Part shown: positions 126 through 11,398 of the stretch, in pieces
Layout of the letters: the number at the start of each line of letters is the position of its first letter
Numbering within the stretch: position 1 is the first letter of the stretch
From: Gammaproteobacteria bacterium
GTDB lineage: Bacteria > Pseudomonadota > Gammaproteobacteria > SZUA-229
Assembly: GCA_030641945.1 (NCBI GenBank)
Contig: DAOWLL010000022.1
Coordinates: forward strand, 1 to 11,398
Direction: 5' to 3'
Length of the DNA: 11,398 nucleotides
Translations under genes and position numbers: made by a program
The notes under the pieces: model-generated
Seen by the model: the letters and a program-made list of their open reading frames with translations, nothing else
Told to the model about the DNA's origin: nothing
Databases searched by the model: none

Positions 126-980
126 TTAATCTGCCAGAAAACTTGCCCGCCTGAGTTCACTTATTGCTCCTTTGATGCGCAATAAATCACCATCTAGCGC
201 CGGCTGCCCGTGCCACCATTGGTAATCAGGCGACTGATGCCCCACCCCCAGATGCACATTGACCAGATGCTGTCTCATTTTCATCATTTGCTGTCTTACA
301 GGCATCAGCTCCTCTTCGGAGAATTCGCCTGTTGCCTGTTTGATCAACCTGTCTGCTTCACGAATTTTTTTACGGGCAATTTCCAGCATAGCTTCGCCGT
401 TGGTGAAGAGATGTGTAATATATCGCGGCGAATGACATTCCTGGCAAACAGCCCTTGTATTATCCTGTACTTTTTCTGTTTCCATGTCGCTCATAAGATC
501 ATGCCTGACCGTCACACTCACATTATGATTGCCCTGGTGCATATGACAATAACCACATCCAGGCGAACGATAGCTTGCTAATTCAAAGGGTTGATTCCAG
601 TCATAACTATTTTTTTCGAGCTGCATTAATGTGCCGTGTTTTGAGCTTGAATAACTATGCACTATTGGCTCTTTTTTACCACCATGACAGTTAATGCAAG
701 TTTCATCATGACGGGCATTGCTAGCAACATCTTTGTGTAATGCGCCATGGCAGCTAACACAATCAACTTTGGGATTTGCTACAGCATGCACACTGTCACG
801 CCAGTCACTAATTAGTGCCTTGTTTTGTTTTTCGTGGCACTGTATGCATGTAGAATTTTCAAGAGCCATTGTGGATGATGGTGCATTTTCAGCAGCAAAA
901 CCATTTGATGCAATAACGCACAAAAAGAACATGCAAAACACCTTTGGCAAAAGATATTTTTTTATTGCGTGTCTGCGCAT
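126..980 (-). CDS. Exported pentaheme cytochrome c, shortened HAO-family paralogue
   Basis: A 284-residue protein with an N-terminal signal peptide (hydrophobic core about 12-27, likely cleavage after FAA30), so it is periplasmic. Five CXXCH heme sites start at Cys45, 74, 95, 142 and 179. The spacing and surrounding residues match the octaheme protein encoded just upstream. Heme 1 is followed by a DWRxS motif. The SKHG motif lies between hemes 3 and 4. CGYCHM...GNH corresponds to the HAO heme-7 region, and the WWHG-containing C-terminus matches the last part of HAO-like proteins. By this reading it keeps HAO-type hemes 1, 2, 6, 7 and 8 and lacks 3, 4 and 5, including the heme usually catalytic in HAO. 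An electron-transfer or partner role is therefore likelier than catalysis (inference). Its ATG overlaps the upstream TGA by one base (TGATG), suggesting coupled translation. Only a weak GAGA-like ribosome site precedes it. It is the last gene of the cassette. Confidence 0.88.
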   Translation of the reverse strand: MRRHAIKKYLLPKVFCMFFLCVIASNGFAAENAPSSTMALENSTCIQCHEKQNKALISDWRDSVHAVANPKVDCVSCHGALHKDVASNARHDETCINCHGGKKEPIVHSYSSSKHGTLMQLEKNSYDWNQPFELASYRSPGCGYCHMHQGNHNVSVTVRHDLMSDMETEKVQDNTRAVCQECHSPRYITHLFTNGEAMLEIARKKIREADRLIKQATGEFSEEELMPVRQQMMKMRQHLVNVHLGVGHQSPDYQWWHGQPALDGDLLRIKGAISELRRASFLAD

Positions 981-2350
981 CAGTTATGGTCTCTGTTGTA
1001 TTCGGTGTATTCACCATTAAACCAGAGCTTTCCTGGATGTTCTTGATGCCCGTTGTTTTTTCTGGCCTCATTCTTTTCGGCTTTACCAAGTGTGCGTATT
1101 TTTTCTGCTTTATGTTTAATTTTTTCAAGGCTGCTGTCCATGGCGGCATGCCCTTTGTTGGCAAATGATATATCACCATGCGCAGAACCTTTATATGCCG
1201 CCAGGTTATCAAAGTACCACATCTCAAAATAGTCACGTTCTATTGCTGAAACATTGTAGAAAGCAGAAGCCTGCCCTTCAAAGAATCCAACGTGTTCGTA
1301 TTGAATGAGATCGTCAGCTGAGTCTGTGGGATAAGGCGGACGTTCTTTTGCTGACGGATAAATTAAATTATCTGAACGCAAAGACTTCAGAATATCTTCT
1401 GCCCTGTATAATTTATTCCAGGCTGTTTTTCTTTCAGCATCCATTTCTTTCAGCCTGTCAGCTGACCAGTCTTTCTCATGACAATCAGCACACAGCTTGA
1501 TCCATTGCTTACGCTTGACCTCGTTACCCGATGTCAGTGGATTAATCTGTTTGATACCAAACTTCCAGATCGATTTGTTTGCTACCTGATGTTTACCTTC
1601 ATCCATATGACAGTAAGCACAAGTCGGTGCCGGGTAATTACCCTTGCGCAAAGGTTTTGACCAATCCCAGTTTTCACCTTCAGCCAGATAAAGTTCACCG
1701 TGTTTCGAGTTAAAATAGGTTTCATCATCCGGATGTGGCGGGCCACTGTGACAGGTAAGACAGGCTTCTGGCCGCCTTGCTTCTGCAGCACTGAAAAGAT
1801 GCCGTGTATGACAGGAATCACATTTGGTTGCAACCGAGTGACATTGCAGACAGGCCGTGACTTCGGCTTTGGGTTTATCGGCAAAATGTTTGGCATCCAG
1901 CGCGCGCTCCATCGCCAGGGCATGACTGGGGAAACCATAACGCTTTTCATCAACAAACTGATTATGTTGATCAGCGTGACAACCACCGCAAATTTCTGGT
2001 GAGGGCAAATGCAGGTCTTCATGATTGCTGCCGTGACAATCCGAACAATAAACTGCGTTCTGGTCGTCCGCAGGTTTTGAATGCCTGCTCTTACGCCAGT
2101 CATTCACGATGCCTGGTGTTACACCCTGGTGACAATCAATACACTGCTCACCACTAAACTCACCAATAACAGAATCAACCGAAACATAAAAGTCTTCCGG
2201 ATTCCAGTAGGCAAAAACAGCTTCGGGTTGCCAGCTTCTGGAATAGAGCCCGGCACCGTCACCGGACTTACTCCAGTCCACGTAATAAAAACCGATAGGC
2301 ACAGAAATGACCGCTATCAGAACAGGTATCCAGACATAGCGTACACGCAT
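980..2350 (-). CDS. Octaheme c-type cytochrome of the hydroxylamine oxidoreductase family
   Basis: A 456-residue protein with eight CXXCH sites starting at Cys70, 102, 121, 167, 177, 197, 244 and 287; none is the CXXCK variant. Family motifs visible are CDSCHTRHLFSAAEAR (177-192), CHSGPPHP, SKHG (215-218), CAYCHM..GKH (244-254) and EMWYFDNLAAYKG (376-388). Residues 6-24 form an uncleaved-looking hydrophobic segment, so it may be anchored in the membrane with the hemes in the periplasm. HAO-family enzymes either oxidise hydroxylamine or hydrazine, or reduce nitrite or hydroxylamine; which applies depends on the tyrosine cross-linked to heme 4, which I cannot place without alignment. The start at 2350 is chosen because GAGG lies 9 nt upstream of this ATG. 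An in-frame TTG at 2365, overlapping the previous stop, is possible but has poorly spaced ribosome-site bases. No haoB or cM552-type partner is adjacent. NrfA is excluded by the heme number and the CHTRH motif. Confidence 0.9.
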   Translation of the reverse strand: MRVRYVWIPVLIAVISVPIGFYYVDWSKSGDGAGLYSRSWQPEAVFAYWNPEDFYVSVDSVIGEFSGEQCIDCHQGVTPGIVNDWRKSRHSKPADDQNAVYCSDCHGSNHEDLHLPSPEICGGCHADQHNQFVDEKRYGFPSHALAMERALDAKHFADKPKAEVTACLQCHSVATKCDSCHTRHLFSAAEARRPEACLTCHSGPPHPDDETYFNSKHGELYLAEGENWDWSKPLRKGNYPAPTCAYCHMDEGKHQVANKSIWKFGIKQINPLTSGNEVKRKQWIKLCADCHEKDWSADRLKEMDAERKTAWNKLYRAEDILKSLRSDNLIYPSAKERPPYPTDSADDLIQYEHVGFFEGQASAFYNVSAIERDYFEMWYFDNLAAYKGSAHGDISFANKGHAAMDSSLEKIKHKAEKIRTLGKAEKNEARKNNGHQEHPGKLWFNGEYTEYNRDHN

Positions 2351-2361
2351 GATTGAGCGCC

Positions 2362-3156
2362 TCAAGCCTTTGTTTGTTTAATGCCTGGCGGACGACTCAA
2401 ATGTTGACGGCTATTCCACCAACGCACCAGGCCGATTATGACAAACACAAAAAATGGACCCAGGGCCAGCCAACTGCTAAAGCTGAATGATCTGTCATGC
2501 ATACTGACCGAGTCGCTATCTACATCAAGCATCAAGCGGTCATCGACAGGAATATGGCTTGCTCCAACAGGATTATCGTTCTTTTGCAGATAGTGCTGTA
2601 TCTGCATCATGATGTCCGCAGAAGGTGGAGAGTATTTCATGACTTCCATATTACGCTGCATTCTTTTTATCAGGCGGGGCCATTCAGCATGATTGTACTG
2701 AACCGGATCCGGCAAAACATGGCAGGCGCCACAATGGTTTTCAAACGCACCTGCGCCTACACCTTGAGGTGTACTCGTCATGGGTTTAAGTGCGTGTATA
2801 ACCAGATAACCGCGTAATTGATCACGCTCGTCAGAAGAAGGTGTCTTCACGTTGCCCAGTAAACCACCAAACCTGTCAGCGACATCCATCACTACCAGCA
2901 TGCGATCAAGCACCTGTGGCCATTCTTCAGCAGTATGGCGTCCGGGACCAGGCAGTTCATGGCACTGGGTGCAATAAGTTTGCATCAACACAGCACCATT
3001 ACCACCGGGATCGGGCAACTGATCGGGCATCAAACCCGGTGGCATTACCTCAGGATAAAGTGCGCACATATCCAGACCACCAAAACTATGACTGGCAAAT
3101 ACCAATGAACTTTTCAGTAATAAAAGCAGCAGCAATGTCAGCAAAGGAATCTTCAT
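2362..3156 (-). CDS. Membrane-anchored diheme cytochrome c
   Basis: A 264-residue protein with a leucine-rich signal peptide (about 1-21), two related cytochrome c modules and one C-terminal transmembrane helix (about 228-246, followed by RWW). Heme sites are Cys62-His66 and Cys142-His146. Each is followed by a similar pattern (LPGPGRHTAEEWPQVLDRM and LPDPVQYNHAEWPRLIKRM), pointing to internal duplication. Met86/Met90 and Met166/Met170 are possible sixth ligands. The topology places both hemes in the periplasm, tethered to the membrane. It is therefore well placed to pass electrons between the membrane protein encoded upstream and the multiheme cytochromes encoded downstream (inference from order). 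Its ATG overlaps the upstream stop as ATGA, and a perfect 7-bp hairpin sits just before the start. I do not recognise a named family. Confidence 0.88.
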   Translation of the reverse strand: MKIPLLTLLLLLLLKSSLVFASHSFGGLDMCALYPEVMPPGLMPDQLPDPGGNGAVLMQTYCTQCHELPGPGRHTAEEWPQVLDRMLVVMDVADRFGGLLGNVKTPSSDERDQLRGYLVIHALKPMTSTPQGVGAGAFENHCGACHVLPDPVQYNHAEWPRLIKRMQRNMEVMKYSPPSADIMMQIQHYLQKNDNPVGASHIPVDDRLMLDVDSDSVSMHDRSFSFSSWLALGPFFVFVIIGLVRWWNSRQHLSRPPGIKQTKA

Positions 3157-5570
3157 TGCACCGACCCGGTATGCCGGGTCATTGAGAAGGCAGGCACTGC
3201 ATCTCCTGGTTTGGGTGAAATAACGTCATTGACAGATTGAATAATTCGCTCACGAGGACGAAAACTGTTGAGGATACCTTCTGCAGCACGACGGCCAGCA
3301 GCAACTGCTGTCACAACCAGATCAGGGCCCAGTGTATTATCGCCGCCCGCATAGATTTTCAGGTTCGATGTTCTGCCATTATCATCCACGATGATGACAC
3401 CGCGCTGATCGGTTTCAATACCCAGTCGCGTCATCCATGTCTGCGGCCTGTTCACCTGGCCTACCGCGAAAATAACGACATCACAGTTGATGGTTTCCTG
3501 GCCACTAACAACCTTGTCGAAACGAACACCCGTTACGTATTCATCCCCTAACACCTGTGTCGGTGCATATTCCAGCCGTAAGCGCACACCTTCCTCCCAG
3601 GCTGCCTGCTTTTCCCTGGGTGTAGCACGCATCGCCTGCTCGTTACCCCGATATACGATGGTAACTTCCGAAGCACTCTGACGAATTGCCGCGCGAGCAC
3701 AATCCATAGCACTATCACCGCCGCCAATGACCAGTACATGCTTCCCTTCCATACTATTACTGTTCTTATCCTGATTGATCTGTTGTAAGTAACTCAGCGC
3801 ATCGGTAACACCTTTAAGATTCTGGCCTGGTAGTTGTAGATCACGAGAGGTCTGCGCGCCGGTGCCGAGGAATATAGCGTCATAACGGTTGTTCAATTGA
3901 TGCAGTTCGGCTTCATCAATCTTTTTACCCAACTGAAACTTGATACCTTGTTCCTGCAATATCTCCTGACGACGTGCCAGCAAAGTTTTGTCAAGTTTGA
4001 ACGACGGTACACCAGTTTCCATCAAACCACCGATTTTTTCATTTTTATCGAATACCGTAACCTCACAACCTGCCTTGCTGAGTTCATCGGCACAGGCAAG
4101 TCCGGCCGGTCCAGCGCCAATGACAGCAATGTGTTTACCATTTCCCTTAATTGTATTCAGGGGCTGCCAGTTATTATCCAGCGCCTCATTCACCAGATAA
4201 CGTTCAATCGCACCAATCGTTACTGCACCGCCCGGCTCCTTTGCCTTAGTGCAGGCACCTTCACATAAACGGTATTGCGGACATACGGTACCGCAGATTT
4301 CCGGTAGATTGCTGGTGCTTTGCGCAATCTCTGCTGCCTGCTGTATATTGCCAACAGCCACCTGCTCCAGCCATTCAGGAATACGGTTATTCAAAGGGCA
4401 GGCGTTGCTGCATCCAGGCAAACCGCAATCGAGACAACGACTGGCCTGCTGCTGAATCATGGCCAGTGATGGCTTTTTAGAAATTTCAGACCAGTCATTC
4501 ACTCGTTCAGATGGTAATCGACTGTTTACATCTTGACGGCCAGAATCCAGCAGTGGATCACATTTCAATAAATGACTGGCACTCTGTACCAGAGATTTAT
4601 TAAACATATTACGCACATCTCGAATTTCCAGTGCATCAGTCGGACAGGACACGACGCAGCGGGCACAACCCATGCAATCTTCCAGCGCTGTAACACGACC
4701 GGCTGCCTTACCCTGATTCCATACCGGAATCCCCATATCGCAAACCTGTTCACAACGTTGGCAGTCGATGCATTTGTCGGTATCCATATTGATGCCATAA
4801 AAACCGGCATGATTGAGCAAACCAAACGTTGCTCCGAAAGGACACAGGTAACGGCAATAAAAACGATTACCCACGATAGGCGCAATAAAGAAAGTACCAA
4901 AGTAAGTAACCGCAACAATTAGATAAAAACCACCAACAAAACTCACCGTCCAGGAATTGGGCGGATACTGGGTGACAACCATCACGCCTACATAATAAAT
5001 AAAGAAGAACCATTTAGAATGACGCAACTTCCACGTCCAGTTGGAACGCAGTGTGCGATCACGAAAAGCAAAACCAACAGATTCACGAATACCAACACAG
5101 GGACAGCCAAAGCCACAAATGATGCGGCGGCCAAATAAAAACACCAGCCCTAGGATCAGGAAGAAGGTGATCGTGCCCGGCACATGCAATGAAGGAAATA
5201 CCGGTTGTGCCCAGAGAAAACCTACATAGGGCTCATAAAATGGATACAACCAGGGAACCATCCACCAGAACACTGTAACCACGGATACAAGAATTATTAA
5301 CCGCCTTCGGGTATAGGCATTTTTTTCGGCAATAATCCGCCAGATGCCAAAGCCAAGAATAATTCCGTATTCGGTATAACGATTAAGCCAGATGGGATTT
5401 TCAAACCAGAACAACCAGGTTTCATTAAGCCAGCCAACAAAAGCCAGCGTGAATGCAGCGATGCTCAATATCTGAACGTGCAGACCATAACGCGCAGGCA
5501 TAAGATCCTGTTGTGTACCGTTAAAGGTACGCGGGTTATGGGTCAGTATATCCTCAGTTTGCATCACCAT
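3153..5570 (-). CDS. Fusion: NapH-like membrane polyferredoxin plus GltD-like FAD/NAD(P)H oxidoreductase
   Basis: An 805-residue fusion. Residues about 28-260 contain roughly five or six transmembrane helices with the NapH/NosR/CcoG-type cysteine motifs CGFGCP (152-157) and CRYLCP (239-244). Two 4Fe-4S ferredoxin motifs follow, Cys267/270/273/277 and Cys299/302/305/309. From about 350 the protein resembles the glutamate synthase small subunit (GltD/NfnB class). It has N-terminal Fe-S cysteines 379/382/387/391 and 426/430/436/440, an FAD-binding GAGPAG (485-490), an NAD(P)-binding GGGDSA (616-621) and the FAD motif AGGD (741-744). No GltB is present, so glutamate synthesis is unlikely. A membrane redox link between NAD(P)H and quinone or periplasmic cytochromes is inferred. 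The start at 5570 (alternatives GTG 5567 and ATG 5564) follows AAAGG. The frame stays open back to 5711, but those 47 codons are translation of a repeat element and are excluded. Overlaps the next gene as ATGA. Confidence 0.88.
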   Translation of the reverse strand: MVMQTEDILTHNPRTFNGTQQDLMPARYGLHVQILSIAAFTLAFVGWLNETWLFWFENPIWLNRYTEYGIILGFGIWRIIAEKNAYTRRRLIILVSVVTVFWWMVPWLYPFYEPYVGFLWAQPVFPSLHVPGTITFFLILGLVFLFGRRIICGFGCPCVGIRESVGFAFRDRTLRSNWTWKLRHSKWFFFIYYVGVMVVTQYPPNSWTVSFVGGFYLIVAVTYFGTFFIAPIVGNRFYCRYLCPFGATFGLLNHAGFYGINMDTDKCIDCQRCEQVCDMGIPVWNQGKAAGRVTALEDCMGCARCVVSCPTDALEIRDVRNMFNKSLVQSASHLLKCDPLLDSGRQDVNSRLPSERVNDWSEISKKPSLAMIQQQASRCLDCGLPGCSNACPLNNRIPEWLEQVAVGNIQQAAEIAQSTSNLPEICGTVCPQYRLCEGACTKAKEPGGAVTIGAIERYLVNEALDNNWQPLNTIKGNGKHIAVIGAGPAGLACADELSKAGCEVTVFDKNEKIGGLMETGVPSFKLDKTLLARRQEILQEQGIKFQLGKKIDEAELHQLNNRYDAIFLGTGAQTSRDLQLPGQNLKGVTDALSYLQQINQDKNSNSMEGKHVLVIGGGDSAMDCARAAIRQSASEVTIVYRGNEQAMRATPREKQAAWEEGVRLRLEYAPTQVLGDEYVTGVRFDKVVSGQETINCDVVIFAVGQVNRPQTWMTRLGIETDQRGVIIVDDNGRTSNLKIYAGGDNTLGPDLVVTAVAAGRRAAEGILNSFRPRERIIQSVNDVISPKPGDAVPAFSMTRHTGSVQ
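3163..3180 (-). promoter_or_regulatory. Perfect hairpin at the coupled gene junction
   Basis: GACCCGG (3163-3169), a 4-nt loop and CCGGGTC (3174-3180) form a perfect 7-bp GC-rich stem. It lies in the last codons of the fusion gene, 6 nt before the diheme cytochrome ATG at 3156. Only a weak Shine-Dalgarno-like GG-rich stretch is seen there, and part of it lies in the stem. The hairpin may hide the start site until ribosomes finish the upstream gene. The pairing is seen directly; the role is inference. Confidence 0.45.
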
Positions 5571-5724: not shown

Positions 5725-6078
5725 TCAAAACACCATCACCTGATCGCTGTCTTTTACCCAGGCGGCCAGCGCTTTCATGGAGCCGCGTTCTATACCCTCT
5801 ATCATGCTTGCTTCATCAATGAAGCAATCATCCAGTGACATGCCACATGCACGAACTTCCAGTCCACACTCAATGAGTTCACGAAGAAGCTCTTCCAGAT
5901 TTACTGCGCCTTCAGGTACATCGTGTTCTTTACGACCCACTTCTACGCCATCATCCAGAAGATGAACCTGTACCTTCATATCCTCTGTTAACGCCGCGCC
6001 TGCAAAACGCAGCGCATGCCATGCCTTATTGCCGGATTCGTAAGGAGCGTTCTGAATAACAATAGTTAGAGTTGACAT
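5725..6078 (-). CDS. DsrE-family protein (second of pair)
   Basis: A 117-residue protein of the DsrE/TusD/YchN fold, without signal peptide and so cytoplasmic. The N-terminal beta strand (LTIVIQNAPYESG) is followed by a helix with ALRFAGAAL. The family's conserved cysteine region is at ACGMSLDDC, with Cys78 and Cys85; Cys71 is nearby. The protein ends in the typical DQVMVF strand. Family members carry sulfur as a persulfide on the conserved cysteine and pass it between proteins. The start at 6078 is chosen because GGAGG lies 5 nt upstream. A longer in-frame ATG at 6090 would place that ribosome site inside the coding sequence. It follows its paralogue by 11 nt, so the two are surely co-transcribed and may form a hetero-oligomer (inference). 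Confidence 0.87.
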   Translation of the reverse strand: MSTLTIVIQNAPYESGNKAWHALRFAGAALTEDMKVQVHLLDDGVEVGRKEHDVPEGAVNLEELLRELIECGLEVRACGMSLDDCFIDEASMIEGIERGSMKALAAWVKDSDQVMVF

Positions 6079-6089
6079 AACAACCTCCA

Positions 6090-6434
6090 TTAAAAAACGA
6101 GAACTTTATCTGCACTCAGCGTGCGCTCTGCCAGCTCCTGCATCGTGCTTCGTTGTGCACGATCGATTAGTTCTTCATCCGTTAAACCACGCGCATCCAT
6201 ACAAGCACCGCATGCAAGTACTTCACCCTTGCGTATCACAGCCTTGAGCATGAGCTCGATATTGTAAAAACCCTGCGGTACTTTTTGTCCTCGTTTGGCA
6301 CCGTTCACGGCATCGGCTATCAGAAATATAGTCACTTCACTATTTTCATTACTTACTGCTTTGGCCAAACGCAGACCGTTATAACTGCGCTCTGTTCCAT
6401 AGGGCGGATCGTTGAGAATAATCAGAACGTTCAT
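6090..6434 (-). CDS. DsrE-family protein (first of pair)
   Basis: A 114-residue cytoplasmic protein of the DsrE/YchN type. The N-terminus MNVLIILNDPPYGTERSYNG is typical of this group, LACGACMD (73-80) supplies Cys75 and Cys78, and the C-terminus is DKVLVF. The cysteine position fits the sulfur-carrying residue of the family, with Cys78 as a possible partner. AAGGAG lies 7 nt before the ATG, a strong ribosome site. It differs clearly from its downstream neighbour, so the pair is an old duplication rather than a recent tandem copy. These two differ from the canonical DsrEFH/TusBCD set in that no third (DsrH/TusB) gene is present. Likely role: persulfide relay or sulfur trafficking; substrate unknown. 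Confidence 0.87.
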   Translation of the reverse strand: MNVLIILNDPPYGTERSYNGLRLAKAVSNENSEVTIFLIADAVNGAKRGQKVPQGFYNIELMLKAVIRKGEVLACGACMDARGLTDEELIDRAQRSTMQELAERTLSADKVLVF

Positions 6435-6595: not shown

Positions 6596-6838
6596 CTATA
6601 TGCTCGCCATCACAGCTTTACCATCACATTTCCTTATTTCACCGAGCAATACATCCGAAGTAACCATTTTCGGGTTATATGCCACTATCATGACATGTGG
6701 ATGTTCTTCATCATTAAAATGAACTGAAACCACACCTTCATGGGCGCGAAGCTCCCGCTCTACCTTGTCTCTATCATCACATGAACTTTCTGGATGGAGA
6801 TGAACGACAAAGTCTGCGATATTGATATCTGTACTCAT
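6596..6838 (-). CDS. Small ferredoxin-fold (HMA/NapD-like) protein
   Basis: An 80-residue cytoplasmic protein. Its pattern matches a beta-alpha-beta-beta-alpha-beta ferredoxin-like fold as in heavy-metal-associated or NapD-type domains: strand ADFVVHLHP, helix DDRDKVERELRAHEGV, strands SVHFNDEEHPHVMIVAY, helix TSDVLLGEIRKC and strand AVMASI. The CXXC metal-binding motif of true copper chaperones is absent; only Cys20 and Cys71 occur, with several histidines (13, 15, 40, 46, 48). Metal binding is therefore unproven. The start at 6838 is set by GGAGG 5 nt upstream; the in-frame ATG codons further upstream lack such a site. It lies 42 nt downstream of the VTT-rhodanese gene. Specific function unknown. 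Confidence 0.8.
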   Translation of the reverse strand: MSTDINIADFVVHLHPESSCDDRDKVERELRAHEGVVSVHFNDEEHPHVMIVAYNPKMVTSDVLLGEIRKCDGKAVMASI

Positions 6839-6880
6839 GATTACCTCCAGACAGTTACCTGTCATTAACACAAGTTTGTT

Positions 6881-7846
6881 TCAGTGAACCACCGGCAAAT
6901 CAGCCTCGATCCACTTTGTCATTCCACCGCGTACAACATGTACGTCGTGAAAACCTTGTTCAGTTAGTAGCAGTGCAGCCTTTGCAGAACGCTTGTCAGT
7001 CCTGCATACAATCGCGATCGGACGTTCGATATATTCAGTTAATTCATTCATGCGATCCGGCAGTTCTTCGACAGCTATATTGACTGCAGAAGCGATATAC
7101 CCCTGTTCTCCAACGTAATCTTCGGCAGTGCGCACATCGAGAACCAGGGCGCCATTGCTATCAATGCGTCTTTTTAGTTCAGGTATATCAATCGCTGGGC
7201 CCCGGCGTATATTGCCGATTATTCGTGGCAGGAAGGCCACCACCGCCAGTAACGCAAGCGCAATCAGTATCTTCTGGATCAGTCCTTCACCGCCACCGAT
7301 AGCTTCACGTCCTGCATAACCAAGATAGGTATATGCAATAGCACCAGGCAGCATGAATACATAGGTCGCAATCAAGTAATGCAGGAACCGTATCTTCGTC
7401 AAACCGAGTGCGTAATTAAGCAGATTAAACGGGAACAGTGGCACCAGTCTGACAAAAGCAACAAAACGCCAGCCTTCGCCCTCGACACCGTTAATTAATT
7501 GTTTGACCCTACCGCCCGCTTTGTCTGCAATCCAGTCTGATGCAAGGTATCGTGATATTAAAAAGGCCAGCACTGCTCCCAACGTGGCGCCTGTCAGGTT
7601 GTAGATAGTGCCAAGCACCGGTCCGAACAGGGCACCGCCGGCAAGCGTAATTACCGAACCCGGTAAAAACAACACCGTGACCAGCGCATAAATCAACATG
7701 AACACAATTGGAGCGAGCACACCCGCATCATTAATCCAGGCTTCGAGTGCAGCGGCATCGAATCGATCCCGATATACAATCGCAAGCGCTATGCTAATTA
7801 ACAGGCCAAGTATTAACACTATGCGTATTAGCCGGTTATTGTTCAT
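6881..7846 (-). CDS. VTT (DedA-like) membrane protein with C-terminal rhodanese domain
   Basis: A 321-residue fusion. Residues 5-24 and about 42-215 hold the helices of a VTT/SNARE-associated (TVP38/DedA-like) domain. Its hallmark loops are visible: FLPGSVITLAGGALFGP (60-76), followed by NLTGATLGA, and RLVPLFPFNLLNYALGL (133-149). Residues about 217-318 are a rhodanese domain with LDVR (236-239), the active-site loop CRTDKRS (281-287), where Cys281 is the expected sulfur-carrying residue, and the ending GGMTKWIEADLPV. The catalytic cysteine is intact, so sulfurtransferase activity at the inner membrane is plausible. VTT proteins are linked to lipid or small-molecule transport. The start at 7846 is chosen because GGAG lies 8 nt upstream; it overlaps the end of the previous gene by 11 nt, so the two are coupled. 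Confidence 0.9.
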   Translation of the reverse strand: MNNNRLIRIVLILGLLISIALAIVYRDRFDAAALEAWINDAGVLAPIVFMLIYALVTVLFLPGSVITLAGGALFGPVLGTIYNLTGATLGAVLAFLISRYLASDWIADKAGGRVKQLINGVEGEGWRFVAFVRLVPLFPFNLLNYALGLTKIRFLHYLIATYVFMLPGAIAYTYLGYAGREAIGGGEGLIQKILIALALLAVVAFLPRIIGNIRRGPAIDIPELKRRIDSNGALVLDVRTAEDYVGEQGYIASAVNIAVEELPDRMNELTEYIERPIAIVCRTDKRSAKAALLLTEQGFHDVHVVRGGMTKWIEADLPVVH

Positions 7847-8699
7847 TATCATCACTCCACTGGCGACGATTAATGGCATAGCTGTTTATACTGCCGATAA
7901 ATGGCAACCACAACATACCGTGCAGCCATGAAACAAGTTTGGGGTCGCGATAGGTATGAATACCAATATTCATGTTTTCATGGCCTGCTCGCGGTTGATC
8001 CCGGTAGGTACCAAACAAGCGATCCCACCAGGGCAAGTTGAAGCCGAAATTGCTGTTGGCCTCATCGTCTTCCACTGAATGATGCACACGGTGCATGTCG
8101 GGTGTAACCACGACCCAGCGTAATAGCCGATCCAGACCCAGAGGTAAGCGCACGTTAGCGTGATTGAACATCGCCGTAGCATTCAATACGACTTCAAAGA
8201 TAACAACCGCGACAACCGGCGGACCGAGCACAGCGATAGTGGCAAACTTGATCAGCATAGATAAAATTATCTCGATGGTATGAAATCGCGCGCCGGTAGT
8301 GACATCGAAATCAAGGTCGGCGTGATGCACACGATGCAGACGCCATAGGATCGGCACTGCGTGAACCATGACGTGTTGCAGGTAGATAATAAAGTCCATT
8401 GCCACGACTGAAGCGACAACAGCAACCACTGGCGATACATCGTAATAGTTAAAGATGCCCCAGCCCTGTTCGCTGGCAAATGCGGCCATACCAACGGCTG
8501 CGGCTGGAAAAATCAGACGAAGAATAAAACTATTGAAAAACACCAGGCCAAGATTGTTGGCCCAACGCACCCCCTTGGAAACGGTCAGTGCCCGGCGTGG
8601 TGCAGCCACTTCCCAGATCGCCATTACAGCAAATATACCAAAAAAGAAACTGAGGCGGATGACCATCTCATTTTGCAGGATCAGTTCATTGAAACTCAT
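7836..8699 (-). CDS. Sterol desaturase / fatty acid hydroxylase superfamily membrane protein
   Basis: A 287-residue integral membrane protein with the histidine clusters of the fatty-acid-hydroxylase superfamily (non-heme di-iron): HVMVH (109-113), HRVHH (122-126) and HRVHH (203-207), plus ARFHTIE (137-143) and a further His180. Hydrophobic segments at about 12-30, 50-75, 88-107 and 145-175 give four membrane helices. Family members use O2 to hydroxylate or desaturate lipids, but bacterial homologues of this type mostly have no known substrate. It is the first gene of the minus-strand block and is divergent from the ArsR-rhodanese regulator, 104 nt away. Only a weak GGGG ribosome site precedes the ATG. 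An O2-dependent enzyme in the same block as anaerobic-respiration-type cytochromes is noteworthy. Confidence 0.9.
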   Translation of the reverse strand: MSFNELILQNEMVIRLSFFFGIFAVMAIWEVAAPRRALTVSKGVRWANNLGLVFFNSFILRLIFPAAAVGMAAFASEQGWGIFNYYDVSPVVAVVASVVAMDFIIYLQHVMVHAVPILWRLHRVHHADLDFDVTTGARFHTIEIILSMLIKFATIAVLGPPVVAVVIFEVVLNATAMFNHANVRLPLGLDRLLRWVVVTPDMHRVHHSVEDDEANSNFGFNLPWWDRLFGTYRDQPRAGHENMNIGIHTYRDPKLVSWLHGMLWLPFIGSINSYAINRRQWSDDNEQ

Positions 8700-8758: not shown

Positions 8759-8780
8759 TATTCAATTGATTGATTGAATA
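8759..8780. promoter_or_regulatory. Inverted-repeat operator, probable ArsR-family binding site
   Basis: TATTCAAT (8759-8766) and ATTGAATA (8773-8780) form a perfect 8-bp inverted repeat with 6-bp spacing in the divergent intergenic region. This is the usual size and AT-rich nature of an operator for a dimeric ArsR-family winged-helix repressor. It lies just after the predicted start of the regulator gene and upstream of the divergent block, so one bound dimer could affect both. The repeat is directly seen; the binding protein is inferred. Confidence 0.6.
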
Positions 8781-8803: not shown

Positions 8804-9472
8804 ATGTCAAGCGGTAATTTCAAACATGATCTGTTTAACCAGTTCGCCGTGGTAGGCAAAGCGCTCAGTAACGGCAATCGGCTGGAACTTCTGGAATTTC
8901 TGGCCCAGGGGGAACGCAGTGTTGAAGACCTGGCGACGGTGTCAGGATTAACCGTGGCCAATACTTCCAGGCACCTGCAGCAGCTGCGCCAGGCAGGGTT
9001 GATCCTGAACCGTAAAGAAGGCCTTAAGGTCTTCTATCGCGTCAGTGCTGATGATGTCATCGAGCTGCTGAGTGCCCTGCGTAATGTAGCTGGGCGCCAT
9101 GTGGCTGATGTGGAAAGACTAGTCAACACCTACCTGACCGTAAAGGACAACCTGGAACCTATTCCCCGCGATGAACTGCTGGCACGTGTTCAAGATGATC
9201 TAGTGACCGTGATCGATGTTCGTCCATCGGAAGAATACGCTGCAGGGCATGTCCCTGGTGCAACGAATATCCCGTTATCTGAGCTGGAAAAACATCTGGA
9301 TCAATTCGACCCTGAACAGGAAATTGTTGCCTATTGTCGAGGTCCTCACTGCGTTCTGGCATTTGATGCCGTAGCTAAGCTCCGTGAAAAGGGTCTCAAG
9401 GCACGACGTTTGCAAGATGGTTATCCTGAATGGAAAACAGCCGGCTTACCTGTAGAGCGTGAGCAATCCTGA
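8804..9472 (+). CDS. ArsR-family transcriptional regulator fused to a rhodanese domain
   Basis: A 222-residue protein. Residues about 10-95 are an ArsR-type winged helix-turn-helix (ALSNGNRLELLEFLAQGERSV, then the recognition helix NTSRHLQQLRQAGLI). Residues about 120-218 are a rhodanese domain with VIDVR (136-140), GHVPGATNIP and the active-site loop CRGPHC, giving Cys178 and a second Cys183. The ArsR part has no cysteine, so metal-thiolate sensing as in SmtB/ArsR is unlikely. Sensing of sulfane sulfur through Cys178, perhaps with Cys183, is the natural reading for this fusion (inference). GAGG lies 4 nt before the ATG. It is transcribed divergently from the minus-strand block, and the inverted repeat between them is its likely site. 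The stop is followed by a gap without a clear terminator. Confidence 0.92.
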   Translation: MSSGNFKHDLFNQFAVVGKALSNGNRLELLEFLAQGERSVEDLATVSGLTVANTSRHLQQLRQAGLILNRKEGLKVFYRVSADDVIELLSALRNVAGRHVADVERLVNTYLTVKDNLEPIPRDELLARVQDDLVTVIDVRPSEEYAAGHVPGATNIPLSELEKHLDQFDPEQEIVAYCRGPHCVLAFDAVAKLREKGLKARRLQDGYPEWKTAGLPVEREQS

Positions 9473-9667: not shown

Positions 9668-10294
9668 ATGAAAGTGCACACATTCACAGGGTTTTTCCTG
9701 ATATCTGGGCTGCTTCTGTCACCAGGCCACACAGCGTCTGCAGCAGATGAAGCTTTCATCGAATCCGTAGTTATCTTCAACACTATCTGTGCTAAATGCC
9801 ATGAAGCTCAATGTAGCGGCCGGCTGAGTTTTGATGATGCCCTGGCAGCATCCACTGGCCATATCCTGCGCCATTATGGAGAGGCCTCCGGGAAAAAGTG
9901 GTTGCAAAAAGAGCTCTTCGAGATTCTCAATTACATGAAAGAGCGATGTTCCTATTACCCGATGAACACCCCGGTCCCTCTTACGAGGGTGTGGGGGAGT
10001 GATGTACTGGCTAAACTGTCCACCCTGCTGGAGAAAAACTACTTTATTCCCATTGGAAATTTCACTCCTGGAAGTTACCGTATTGAATTGGAACTTGAAA
10101 AGGATACCAGGATCACCGCTCATCTGATCACCGAGGAATTCGATATGATTGTCGAGGATTGTTATGAGTCGAGTAACAGACGGATTAATATCCCGTTTGT
10201 TGTCGAGTCATCAGGAATTCACTATTTTCGGATCTATCCGCGCAAGCCAGTGCGTATCACTCGGCTATCTATAACTACCTTAAACGATCAATAA
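9668..10294 (+). CDS. Exported monoheme cytochrome c-like protein with an unassigned C-terminal domain
   Basis: A 208-residue protein with a signal peptide (hydrophobic 7-19, probable cleavage after ASA25). A single heme site CAKCH (41-45) is followed closely by Cys49. Residues about 30-122 are mainly helical and could be a small cytochrome c-like module, with Met90 or Met99 as possible axial ligand. Residues about 125-205 alternate short hydrophobic and polar residues with prolines and glycines, as expected for a beta-sandwich domain; I do not recognise this half. GGAG lies 8 nt before the ATG. It stands alone between the regulator and nirS, converging on nirS. A redox or ligand-binding role in the periplasm is likely, but no pathway is assigned. 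Cys94 and Cys165 could also form a disulfide. Confidence 0.82.
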   Translation: MKVHTFTGFFLISGLLLSPGHTASAADEAFIESVVIFNTICAKCHEAQCSGRLSFDDALAASTGHILRHYGEASGKKWLQKELFEILNYMKERCSYYPMNTPVPLTRVWGSDVLAKLSTLLEKNYFIPIGNFTPGSYRIELELEKDTRITAHLITEEFDMIVEDCYESSNRRINIPFVVESSGIHYFRIYPRKPVRITRLSITTLNDQ

Positions 10295-10639: not shown

Positions 10640-11398
10640 TTAGTAAATATCATCAGCTGTGTTAGTCACATTGAACTTACCGGTTGTCGCTGGCAATGTG
10701 ATCTTCTTTATCACGTTCAACGTGGTACCGTCGAGGATGACCTGTCCGCCACCCTCACCGGCCCAATCCGATATCCAGACTTCACTGCCGTCTTTATTGA
10801 ACTCCATGTGTACTGCCTTACCGGCACTGGCCACATCAAAGCAGCGATCAACGTCACCGGTTGATTTAGCAATGGCACAGATCTGCTTATCGTTGGTTGA
10901 ACTTAATGTCATGTCAACAAGTACCCAGGGTGAATTCGGGTGTGTCTTGATGAACAGCGAACCTGCAGCCGGCAGATCGATCTGACGGACCACTTTCCAG
11001 GCATGCTCTGGCTTGTTGGCCGGATCCGCACCATACACCGAGATAAACGGACTACCGATATGTGGTGTTGCATTTACCCAACCATAAACCGGATCTTCCC
11101 AGTTAGCGCCACGACCTGGATGTGGCACATTACCAACATCGATGATCTGTTCAAGGGTCTGCTCTTGCACATCCACAATCACTATCTTGTTGCTGGCATT
11201 CGCCGCAGTCATGAAATAGCGCTTGGTATGGTCCCAGCCGCCATCATGCAGGAACTTGGCTGTTGGAATGTTGCTAACCAAAGGTGCGCCTGCCAGCGAA
11301 TAGTCAACGATACCCACATAGCCGGACTCTTTCTGGTTAACCACCCACACGGGCGCAAATTCCGAGGCAACAATAGCCGCGACACGCACTTCAGGCAG
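10640..11398 (-). CDS. nirS: Cytochrome cd1 nitrite reductase NirS, C-terminal part of the d1 domain (partial)
   Basis: 252 codons of an open frame that continues past the right edge; the first visible GTG/ATG is not the true start. It matches the C-terminal heme-d1 beta-propeller of cytochrome cd1 nitrite reductase. FLHDGGWD and VPHPGRGAN hold the two catalytic histidines of the d1 site, and SLFIKTHP and the closing TGKFNVTNTADDIY are typical of NirS. NirN and NirF share the propeller fold, but the C-terminal ending and both histidines favour NirS. The enzyme reduces nitrite to nitric oxide in the periplasm during denitrification, taking electrons from small cytochromes or cupredoxins. The N-terminal cytochrome c domain and signal peptide lie outside the window. 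It ends at a strong terminator, so no further nir gene follows in this unit. Confidence 0.9.
   Translation of the reverse strand: MPEVRVAAIVASEFAPVWVVNQKESGYVGIVDYSLAGAPLVSNIPTAKFLHDGGWDHTKRYFMTAANASNKIVIVDVQEQTLEQIIDVGNVPHPGRGANWEDPVYGWVNATPHIGSPFISVYGADPANKPEHAWKVVRQIDLPAAGSLFIKTHPNSPWVLVDMTLSSTNDKQICAIAKSTGDVDRCFDVASAGKAVHMEFNKDGSEVWISDWAGEGGGQVILDGTTLNVIKKITLPATTGKFNVTNTADDIY

Follow-up and report, generated by a model that had tools for sequence, protein, structure and literature searches.

Which substrate would a membrane flavoprotein coupled to multiheme cytochromes of hydroxylamine oxidoreductase (HAO) descent serve, and in which direction would its electrons flow? This question is raised by four genes on contig DAOWLL010000022.1 of a Gammaproteobacteria bacterium, which was analysed over its whole length of 11,398 bases (the window; the genome comprises 2.7 Mb in 634 contigs and is 86% complete). 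The genes, hereafter the cassette, encode a NapH-GltD fusion, a diheme, an octaheme and a pentaheme cytochrome. The answer that we tentatively favor is an inducible, NADPH-fed transmembrane module that would reduce an arsenic compound in the periplasm and be tied to the arsenic response; both the direction and the substrate are what we infer. The architecture of the cassette is well supported, and so is its arsenic context across lineages, while for the window itself that context is indirect.

The four-gene cassette and its carriers

The cassette begins with the NapH-GltD fusion (805 aa, 5570-3153), continues with the diheme c-type cytochrome (264 aa, 3156-2362) and the octaheme cytochrome of the HAO family (461 aa, 2365-980), and ends with the pentaheme cytochrome (284 aa, 980-126); all genes are on the minus strand and overlap by 1 or 4 bases. 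The three cytochromes hold 2, 8 and 5 CXXCH motifs, 15 in total, and Pfam and NCBIfam scans return HAO-type multiheme, NapH, Fer4, Fer4_20 and pyridine-nucleotide oxidoreductase domains. The original prediction, made from the letters of the window, had reported these overlapping genes with their coordinates and 15 heme sites, together with four Fe-S cysteine groups, FAD and NAD(P) sites and membrane anchoring. Gene coordinates, CXXCH counts, conserved motifs and hydropathy bear this out, and the domains and motifs are those of the electron path it had drawn between NAD(P)H, the membrane and periplasmic multiheme proteins. Its view of a compact four-gene cassette stands in part: the genes are real, overlapping and kept in order, but the presumed transcription unit is probably longer and would span 8699 to 126.

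The NapH-GltD fusion has about four transmembrane helices, two CX3CP motifs, two ferredoxin-type 4Fe-4S groups, a GltD-type Fer4_20 domain and sites for FAD and NADP. Twenty-two of its 26 cysteines are present in all 39 full-length fusions (window included). Of these, 21 lie in the CX3CP motifs, the two ferredoxin groups and two GltD-type groups, and the last is C624; C493 is kept in 38 of the 39, and C337, C502 and C696 vary. The FAD motif GAGPAG and the NADP motif GGGD.A.DCAR are likewise conserved, and the nearest solved relatives of the C-terminal part are small subunits of glutamate synthase and Nfn-type proteins. NADPH as donor and an outward flow of electrons would be the natural reading of these motifs. 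The protein resembles NapGH and NapH-MauN in its NapH-type transmembrane domain, its CX3CP motifs and two C-terminal 4Fe-4S groups, but differs from them in being fused to a GltD-type NADPH flavoprotein. It scores 65.9 bits against the 213 required by TIGR02163 and 61 against the 234 of PRK09477, so that the homology to NapH is at the level of the domain only. The diheme protein has an N-terminal signal or anchor and a C-terminal transmembrane helix by simple hydropathy, and shows weak similarity, below cut-offs, to class I and DHC c domains.

The distribution of the cassette was surveyed with the octaheme as query. A scan of named genomes, limited in reach to close relatives, yielded 67 loci with 50-79% identity in the best segment. 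In the taxonomic order of the window the octaheme occurs at 71% identity or more in 10 of 54 genomes, and a sample of the class has a match at E up to 1e-60 in 16 of 369 genomes, one of them (G137) at 44% identity and interrupted by stops. By record title, the carriers are Gammaproteobacteria metagenome-assembled genomes (MAGs), tubeworm and lucinid symbionts, Thiogranum, Thiohalobacter, Thiobacillus, Sulfuricaulis, Magnetococcales, Nitrospinota and a Rhodospirillaceae MAG. A single open frame covers both NapH and GltD in 41 of the 67 loci, and NapH lacks a GltD match in 14 (11 Magnetococcales, 2 Nitrospinota, 1 Rhodospirillaceae); the remaining 12 comprise four split by frame or gap, three with GltD only and five with neither. 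In 37 loci there are detectable relatives of all three of NapH-GltD, octaheme and pentaheme, and in 21 the four genes stand in order, with a diheme relative in the middle; in L048 the diheme gene comes last. Since the diheme relative goes undetected in many loci, we call it accessory. These counts include broken or incomplete genes (e.g., the octahemes of L082 and L088), and contig ends truncate many of the loci. Ten loci have a pentaheme relative with fewer than five CXXCH motifs in frame.

The order of the genes recurs in other genomes and is therefore not due to chance, which agrees with the conservation that the original prediction had made its touchstone. Its impression that the system is new also holds within our search, as no described system with these four genes came up in full-text searches of open-licence papers.

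Several variants were seen. The stand-alone NapH of Magnetococcales and Nitrospinota (L069-L079, L085), without a GltD match, has an extra C-terminal transmembrane helix in two of three proteins checked. A NapH-octaheme fusion in Magnetococcales was considered and rejected because the overlapping genes lie in different reading frames. In a one-contig genome (L196, 8743-10139) the octaheme gene is broken by stops, and the regulator described below and NapH-GltD are still matched there. In one tubeworm symbiont (L084, 7926-9422) octaheme and pentaheme parts share one open frame with 10 CXXCH motifs, which may be a fusion, a deletion or an assembly error.

Octaheme and pentaheme cytochromes of HAO descent

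The octaheme belongs to the HAO superfamily (Pfam Multi-haem_cyto, 1.8e-42). Its best PDB matches are Kuenenia and Brocadia HAO, 6h5l and hydrazine dehydrogenase (HDH), with the top match at 1.1e-68 (4n4j, also known as kustc1061). All eight CXXCH motifs align one to one with those of 4n4j, 6hif and 6h5l, a correspondence that rests on sequence, the structure model being poor (mean pLDDT 66). In a FastTree phylogeny, from which L092par1, a long-branch, unrelated multiheme protein, was dropped, the octaheme is joined to 4n4j and HDH at 0.999, and its clade's own node has a low support of 0.459.

In HAO, an Asp-His pair forms part of the active site, and a tyrosine cross-linked to heme P460 links the subunits of the trimer. 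At the aligned column this tyrosine is missing from all 63 octahemes compared (the window and 62 others, the incomplete octahemes of L080, L082, L086, L087 and L088 having been left out of the 67 loci), and a second alignment shows a gap there in 69 of 69; a tyrosine stands elsewhere in the cross-link loop in three of the 63 (L067, L068, L079). The position of the active-site Asp is occupied by Pro in 63 of 63, and the partner His is kept in all of them. The Asp is retained in 4n4j, HDH, 6h5l, Ruegeria HAO, a protein of Desulfosarcina and those HAO-like paralogues that entered the tree. Several paralogue rows of the alignments (L013, L092-L094, L099-L101) represented a wrong reading frame or a different multiheme protein, and most of these were re-drawn. 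The octaheme profile was built from 41 of the 63 sequences, and heme 4 and its surroundings are highly conserved. By these residues, the octaheme is a member of the HAO superfamily that lacks the hallmarks of hydroxylamine oxidation.

Compared with anammox HAO (4n4j) and HDH (6hif), to which it is alike in family, in the alignment of all eight CXXCH motifs, in best PDB match and in its place in the tree, the cassette octaheme differs by the missing tyrosine, by Pro for Asp, by a predicted N-terminal transmembrane helix that would anchor it to the membrane, and by its partners and gene context. It shares the absence of Tyr at the cross-link column and a dedicated partner cytochrome with the reducing HAO-like complex Kustc0457/Kustc0458 (6h5l) and with the NapC-linked Desulfosarcina protein WP_155326280. 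Those proteins keep the Asp and have Kustc0457 or a NapC-type cytochrome as partner, whereas the partners in the cassette are a pentaheme derivative of HAO and NapH-GltD; the octaheme thus agrees with reductive HAO in the first trait and departs from it in the others. HAO-like octaheme paralogues also occur in the same taxonomic order (L090 at G000:C308, L091-L094, L099 and L100); they keep the Asp in the rows of the tree and have no arsenic-type genes nearby.

A nitrite or hydroxylamine reductase fed by NADPH, working in ammonification or in the detoxification of NO or hydroxylamine as the Tyr-less HAO-type reductases do, would account for the family membership and for the absence of Tyr that is shared with 6h5l, by its title a reducing HAO-like complex; a nitrite-reducing HAO without the cross-link is reportedly the topic of another paper. 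NrfA is matched in 0 of the 54 genomes of the order, which would leave room for another ammonifier. Being absent with and without the cassette, NrfA does not discriminate and was set aside as an uninformative correlate. The uniform replacement of an Asp kept in the reference HAO-type proteins argues against such a role, as do the recurring neighbors, which are of arsenic and sulfur type (see below), and we regard it as rather improbable. The nitrogen-oxide role floated in the original prediction is thus disfavored by the loss of HAO hallmark residues, by the neighbors and the arsenic/sulfur-type regulator, and by the scanned window proteins, among which there is no HaoB or NapC family. Its remark that haoB, cM552 and napC are absent holds for those proteins, where no such partner family was matched; no genome-wide search was made. 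The Ruegeria HAO reference does have haoB.

Other eight-heme cytochromes were also compared. Octaheme tetrathionate reductase (OTR), ONR and MccA are periplasmic cytochromes known from sulfur-linked bacteria, with eight hemes like the cassette octaheme, and the active heme of OTR is bound via a Lys-type motif. All eight motifs of the cassette octaheme are CXXCH, and no OTR chain appeared in its PDB sequence search. OTR does occur in symbionts, according to passages of two papers (PMC11237559, PMC7540712). By the comparisons made, the cassette, though related to HAO, is neither HAO, NapGH nor OTR, and would work like a transmembrane reductase.

The pentaheme, which the original prediction had counted as a separate cytochrome, does have five hemes, but its kinship to HAO had been missed. 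It is homologous to the octaheme, with an HAO fold from which hemes 3-5, including the catalytic heme, are excised. NrfB and DmsE models score far below their cut-offs (22 against 184 and 20 against 167 bits for NrfB; 34 against 192 for DmsE), and families missing from the VIA-align list are taken as evidence in neither direction. The alignment has 51 rows, after removal of seven loci without a separate pentaheme match and ten with fewer than five CXXCH motifs in frame (including four Thiobacillus), and 38 of the 51 went into the profile. A loop of the reductive-HAO type, SPDYQWWHGxPALDGDL, is near-invariant in the pentaheme, and the corresponding loop of the octaheme is variable. Because the pentaheme keeps, without a catalytic heme, the loop that the octaheme varies, a composite active site is suggested, in which heme 4 of the octaheme would be completed in trans by the pentaheme loop.

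The same losses could be read in another way, with octaheme and pentaheme as a pure electron conduit that passes electrons on to a further protein of the periplasm or outer membrane and has no catalytic site of its own. The missing catalytic residues, the pentaheme without catalytic heme and the ten loci with motif-poor pentahemes would fit. A mere wire, on the other hand, would need neither a highly conserved heme 4 region nor a near-invariant loop, and we consider a conduit the most improbable of the functions weighed here.

Regulator, operator-like site and arsenic-type neighbors

Divergent to the presumed operon lies a gene for an ArsR-type regulator fused to a rhodanese domain with a CRGPHC loop (8804..9472, plus strand), and an operator-like dyad, TATTCAA-N8-TTGAATA, stands between the divergent genes (8759..8780, no strand assigned). 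Within two mismatches this site is found in 61 of 72 upstream regions of such regulators, compared with 5 of 1440 mononucleotide shuffles, where the 72 regions include at least one pair from the same locus (L024, L158) and four Thiobacillus regions that belong to regulators of about 40% identity. The window genome has one exact copy, that at 8759-8780. Across the order, exact sites occur at 23 places in 22 of 54 genomes, compared with one place for a reversed control pattern; 20 adjoin the regulator gene (incomplete in G039 and G041), two immediately precede a TauE gene (G038, G049), and one (G007) is unassigned. At the two TauE-family permease genes (L211, G038:C236; L218, G049:C5) there is no regulator, and since the same site precedes them, TauE may belong to the regulon. 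The cassette thus has, as in ArsR-type operons, an ArsR-family regulator with a dedicated putative site in the divergent promoter.

The ArsR-rhodanese gene itself is found at E below 1e-90 in 33 of the 54 genomes. Twenty-seven regulator loci (L132-L158), many on short contigs, include arsS in eight, NapH-GltD or more of the cassette in four, and both in one. In five genomes without the cassette octaheme (G050, G051, G052, G053, G027), the regulator, the fatty-acid hydroxylase and the VTT-rhodanese gene are followed directly by arsS, and then by glycosyltransferases and arsM; in a sixth (G032), a DsrE gene stands between the first genes and arsS. The operator-like site is found in the divergent promoter of both cassette and cassette-less arsS loci. 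The arsenosugar-type cluster (ArsS, TIGR04282, TIGR04283, ArsM) of several relatives thus has regulator, site and first genes in common with the cassette, and forms one run with it in several lineages, while the cassette-less arsS loci compared show no match to the cassette cytochromes.

Neighbors were counted with eight query genes at more than 60 bits in the 67 named loci. One representative of each family was scored against NCBIfam, and the scores exceed the cut-offs for ArsS (459.7 against 300), TIGR04282 (196.6 against 134), TIGR04283 (277 against 182), ArsJ (599.7 against 400) and the ArsJ-associated G3PDH (551 against 450); the permease adjoining ArsJ is SaoE-like, below cut-off. We found arsM-like genes in 15 loci, arsS in 8, the two glycosyltransferases in 8 and 7, arsJ in 5, the permease in 5 and G3PDH in 6 (one weak). 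At least one arsenic-type gene is present in 23 loci, or 22 without a weak gapAs match in L085 (28% identity). If at least 1.5 kb is visible downstream, an arsenic-type gene lies there in 21 of 45 loci (20 without the L085 match), on the same strand in 15. With genomes of 3.2 Mb assumed, a single-copy gene is expected by chance in about 0.27 of the 67 loci, and hence the eight queries in about two. Several lineages are concerned, not all of which count as independent, since four loci are from Thiobacillus and five from tubeworm symbionts. As a small control, the surroundings of eight further multiheme genes from this taxonomic order (114 kb in all; seven of the eight are HAO-like paralogues) gave no match to the eight queries above 60 bits.

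The fullest example (L157) runs from regulator, fatty-acid hydroxylase, VTT-rhodanese, NapH-GltD, octaheme and pentaheme to arsS, TIGR04283, TIGR04282 and arsM. A complete genome (L185) has a similar run, with TauE and DsrE ahead of NapH-GltD, a small methyltransferase ahead of arsS, and arsM ahead of the glycosyltransferases. Fourteen loci were fetched from the class sample, of which five had already been seen; arsS is present in four of the other nine (L185, L188, L191, L193). A small UbiE/ArsM-like methyltransferase of about 210 aa is found behind the pentaheme in many loci (L185 12495-13118, L045, L046, L034, L041 and others).

These neighbors would also suit an oxidative enzyme, in which octaheme and pentaheme oxidise As(III) or methyl-As(III), the diheme anchor passes the electrons to a terminal oxidase and NapH-GltD is otherwise employed. 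The tree position beside two oxidases, anammox HAO and HDH, and the weak resemblance, below cut-offs, that the diheme protein bears to c domains of class I and DHC type would agree with this. Yet the octaheme lacks the cross-link Tyr that marks the oxidative enzymes, the diheme gene goes undetected in many loci in which NapH is kept, and electrons from arsenite, going by the usual potentials, could not reduce NADP without an input of energy. We therefore judge an oxidative role to be improbable.

Several observations weigh against a reduction tied to the arsenic response. None of the eight gene types is seen in 24 of the 45 loci with enough downstream sequence, and the ArsM-like representative falls below its cut-off (192 against 263 bits). 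The arsJ, permease and G3PDH genes of tubeworm symbionts are on the opposite strand. In other lineages, genes of arsenic type follow the cassette on the same strand and may belong to its transcription unit; in the window the operon's downstream end is cut, with arsS on another contig (G000:C93), and genes behind the pentaheme are not visible because the contig ends 125 bases after it. arsS scores over its cut-off in 44 of the 54 genomes of the order and in 42 of 50 cassette genomes, and stands beside the cassette in 1 of 10 cassettes of the order (G049). Since arsS is widespread whether or not the cassette is there, its presence was rejected as evidence and only its adjacency is informative. 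Among nine arsS loci fetched for themselves (L159-L167), none has the ArsR-rhodanese gene. Finally, the two cysteines of the rhodanese loop are kept in 65 of 65 aligned regulators (of 72), and because this conserved pair sits in the rhodanese domain, the inducer could be sulfane sulfur; the DsrE, rhodanese and TauE neighbors fit sulfur equally well. Proteins that handle sulfur occur often in these operons, so that either the inducer or the substrate may be a sulfur or thio-arsenic compound. Acr3 was also examined as a correlate and proved weak (6 of 10 cassette carriers, 15 of 44 others).

In a sulfur role, which the original prediction had named as well, the regulator would sense persulfide, and the cassette would feed a sulfur relay or act as a periplasmic reductase of polysulfide, sulfite, thiosulfate or tetrathionate. 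Rhodanese domains on both the regulator and the VTT protein, two DsrE proteins, TauE-family neighbors in several loci and the TauE genes beside the operator-like site in two genomes all speak for it. So do record titles that include animal symbionts and genera generally regarded as sulfur oxidisers, many MAG titles giving no lifestyle. It leaves the methylation and arsenosugar-type genes of the same run unexplained, and we consider it unlikely, if a serious contender.

Proposed mechanism and further genes of the window

In the arsenic reduction that we favor, the GltD part would take electrons from NADPH via FAD and 4Fe-4S centers, and the NapH part would move them across the inner membrane into the periplasmic pair of octaheme and pentaheme; the diheme protein, anchored in the membrane, could serve as an additional, optional link. 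The octaheme would offer an open site at heme 4, which the pentaheme loop may complete from a neighboring subunit, as the Tyr loop does in the HAO trimer. The substrate would most likely be an arsenic compound of sulfidic water, such as arsenate, thioarsenate or an oxidised methylarsenical, and its reduction would belong to a response to arsenic under the control of the ArsR-rhodanese regulator. The picture in full, namely an arsenic-responsive, NADPH-driven HAO-family reductase with the catalytic heme in the octaheme and the pentaheme loop in trans, within an arsenic-methylation and arsenosugar-type regulon of sulfur oxidisers and animal symbioses, is possible but doubtful.

If it were true, HAO-type multiheme enzymes, known from the nitrogen cycle, would have been recruited for the chemistry of arsenic in sulfidic environments, and the cassette would be the first known arsenic-transforming multiheme cytochrome system of the HAO family and have the first composite HAO-type active site. 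It would also provide a direct route from NADPH to the periplasm, which was not found in the literature searched. Because the carriers include, by title, symbionts of tubeworms and lucinid clams, it would bear on how such symbioses live with arsenic. If our reading is right, genes annotated as nitrogen-cycle markers in metagenomes ('hydroxylamine oxidoreductase-like') can mislead.

The remaining genes of the presumed operon precede the cassette on the minus strand. Its first gene encodes a protein of the fatty-acid hydroxylase (sterol desaturase) family (7836..8699), followed by a VTT-domain membrane protein with a rhodanese domain at the C-terminus (6881..7879), as judged by domain match. Next come a 91-aa protein (6596..6871), which has no Pfam or NCBIfam match and has relatives at several cassette loci, and two DsrE-family proteins identified by Pfam and NCBIfam (6090..6434 and 5725..6090). 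Clusters of antisense open reading frames were disregarded. Beyond the regulator, a partial protein with a cytochrome d1 domain (10640-11398, minus strand) is cut by the contig end, with none matched in the 67 named cassette loci, and a 208-aa protein outside the Pfam and NCBIfam families (9668-10294, plus strand) carries one CXXCH-type motif (CAKCH).

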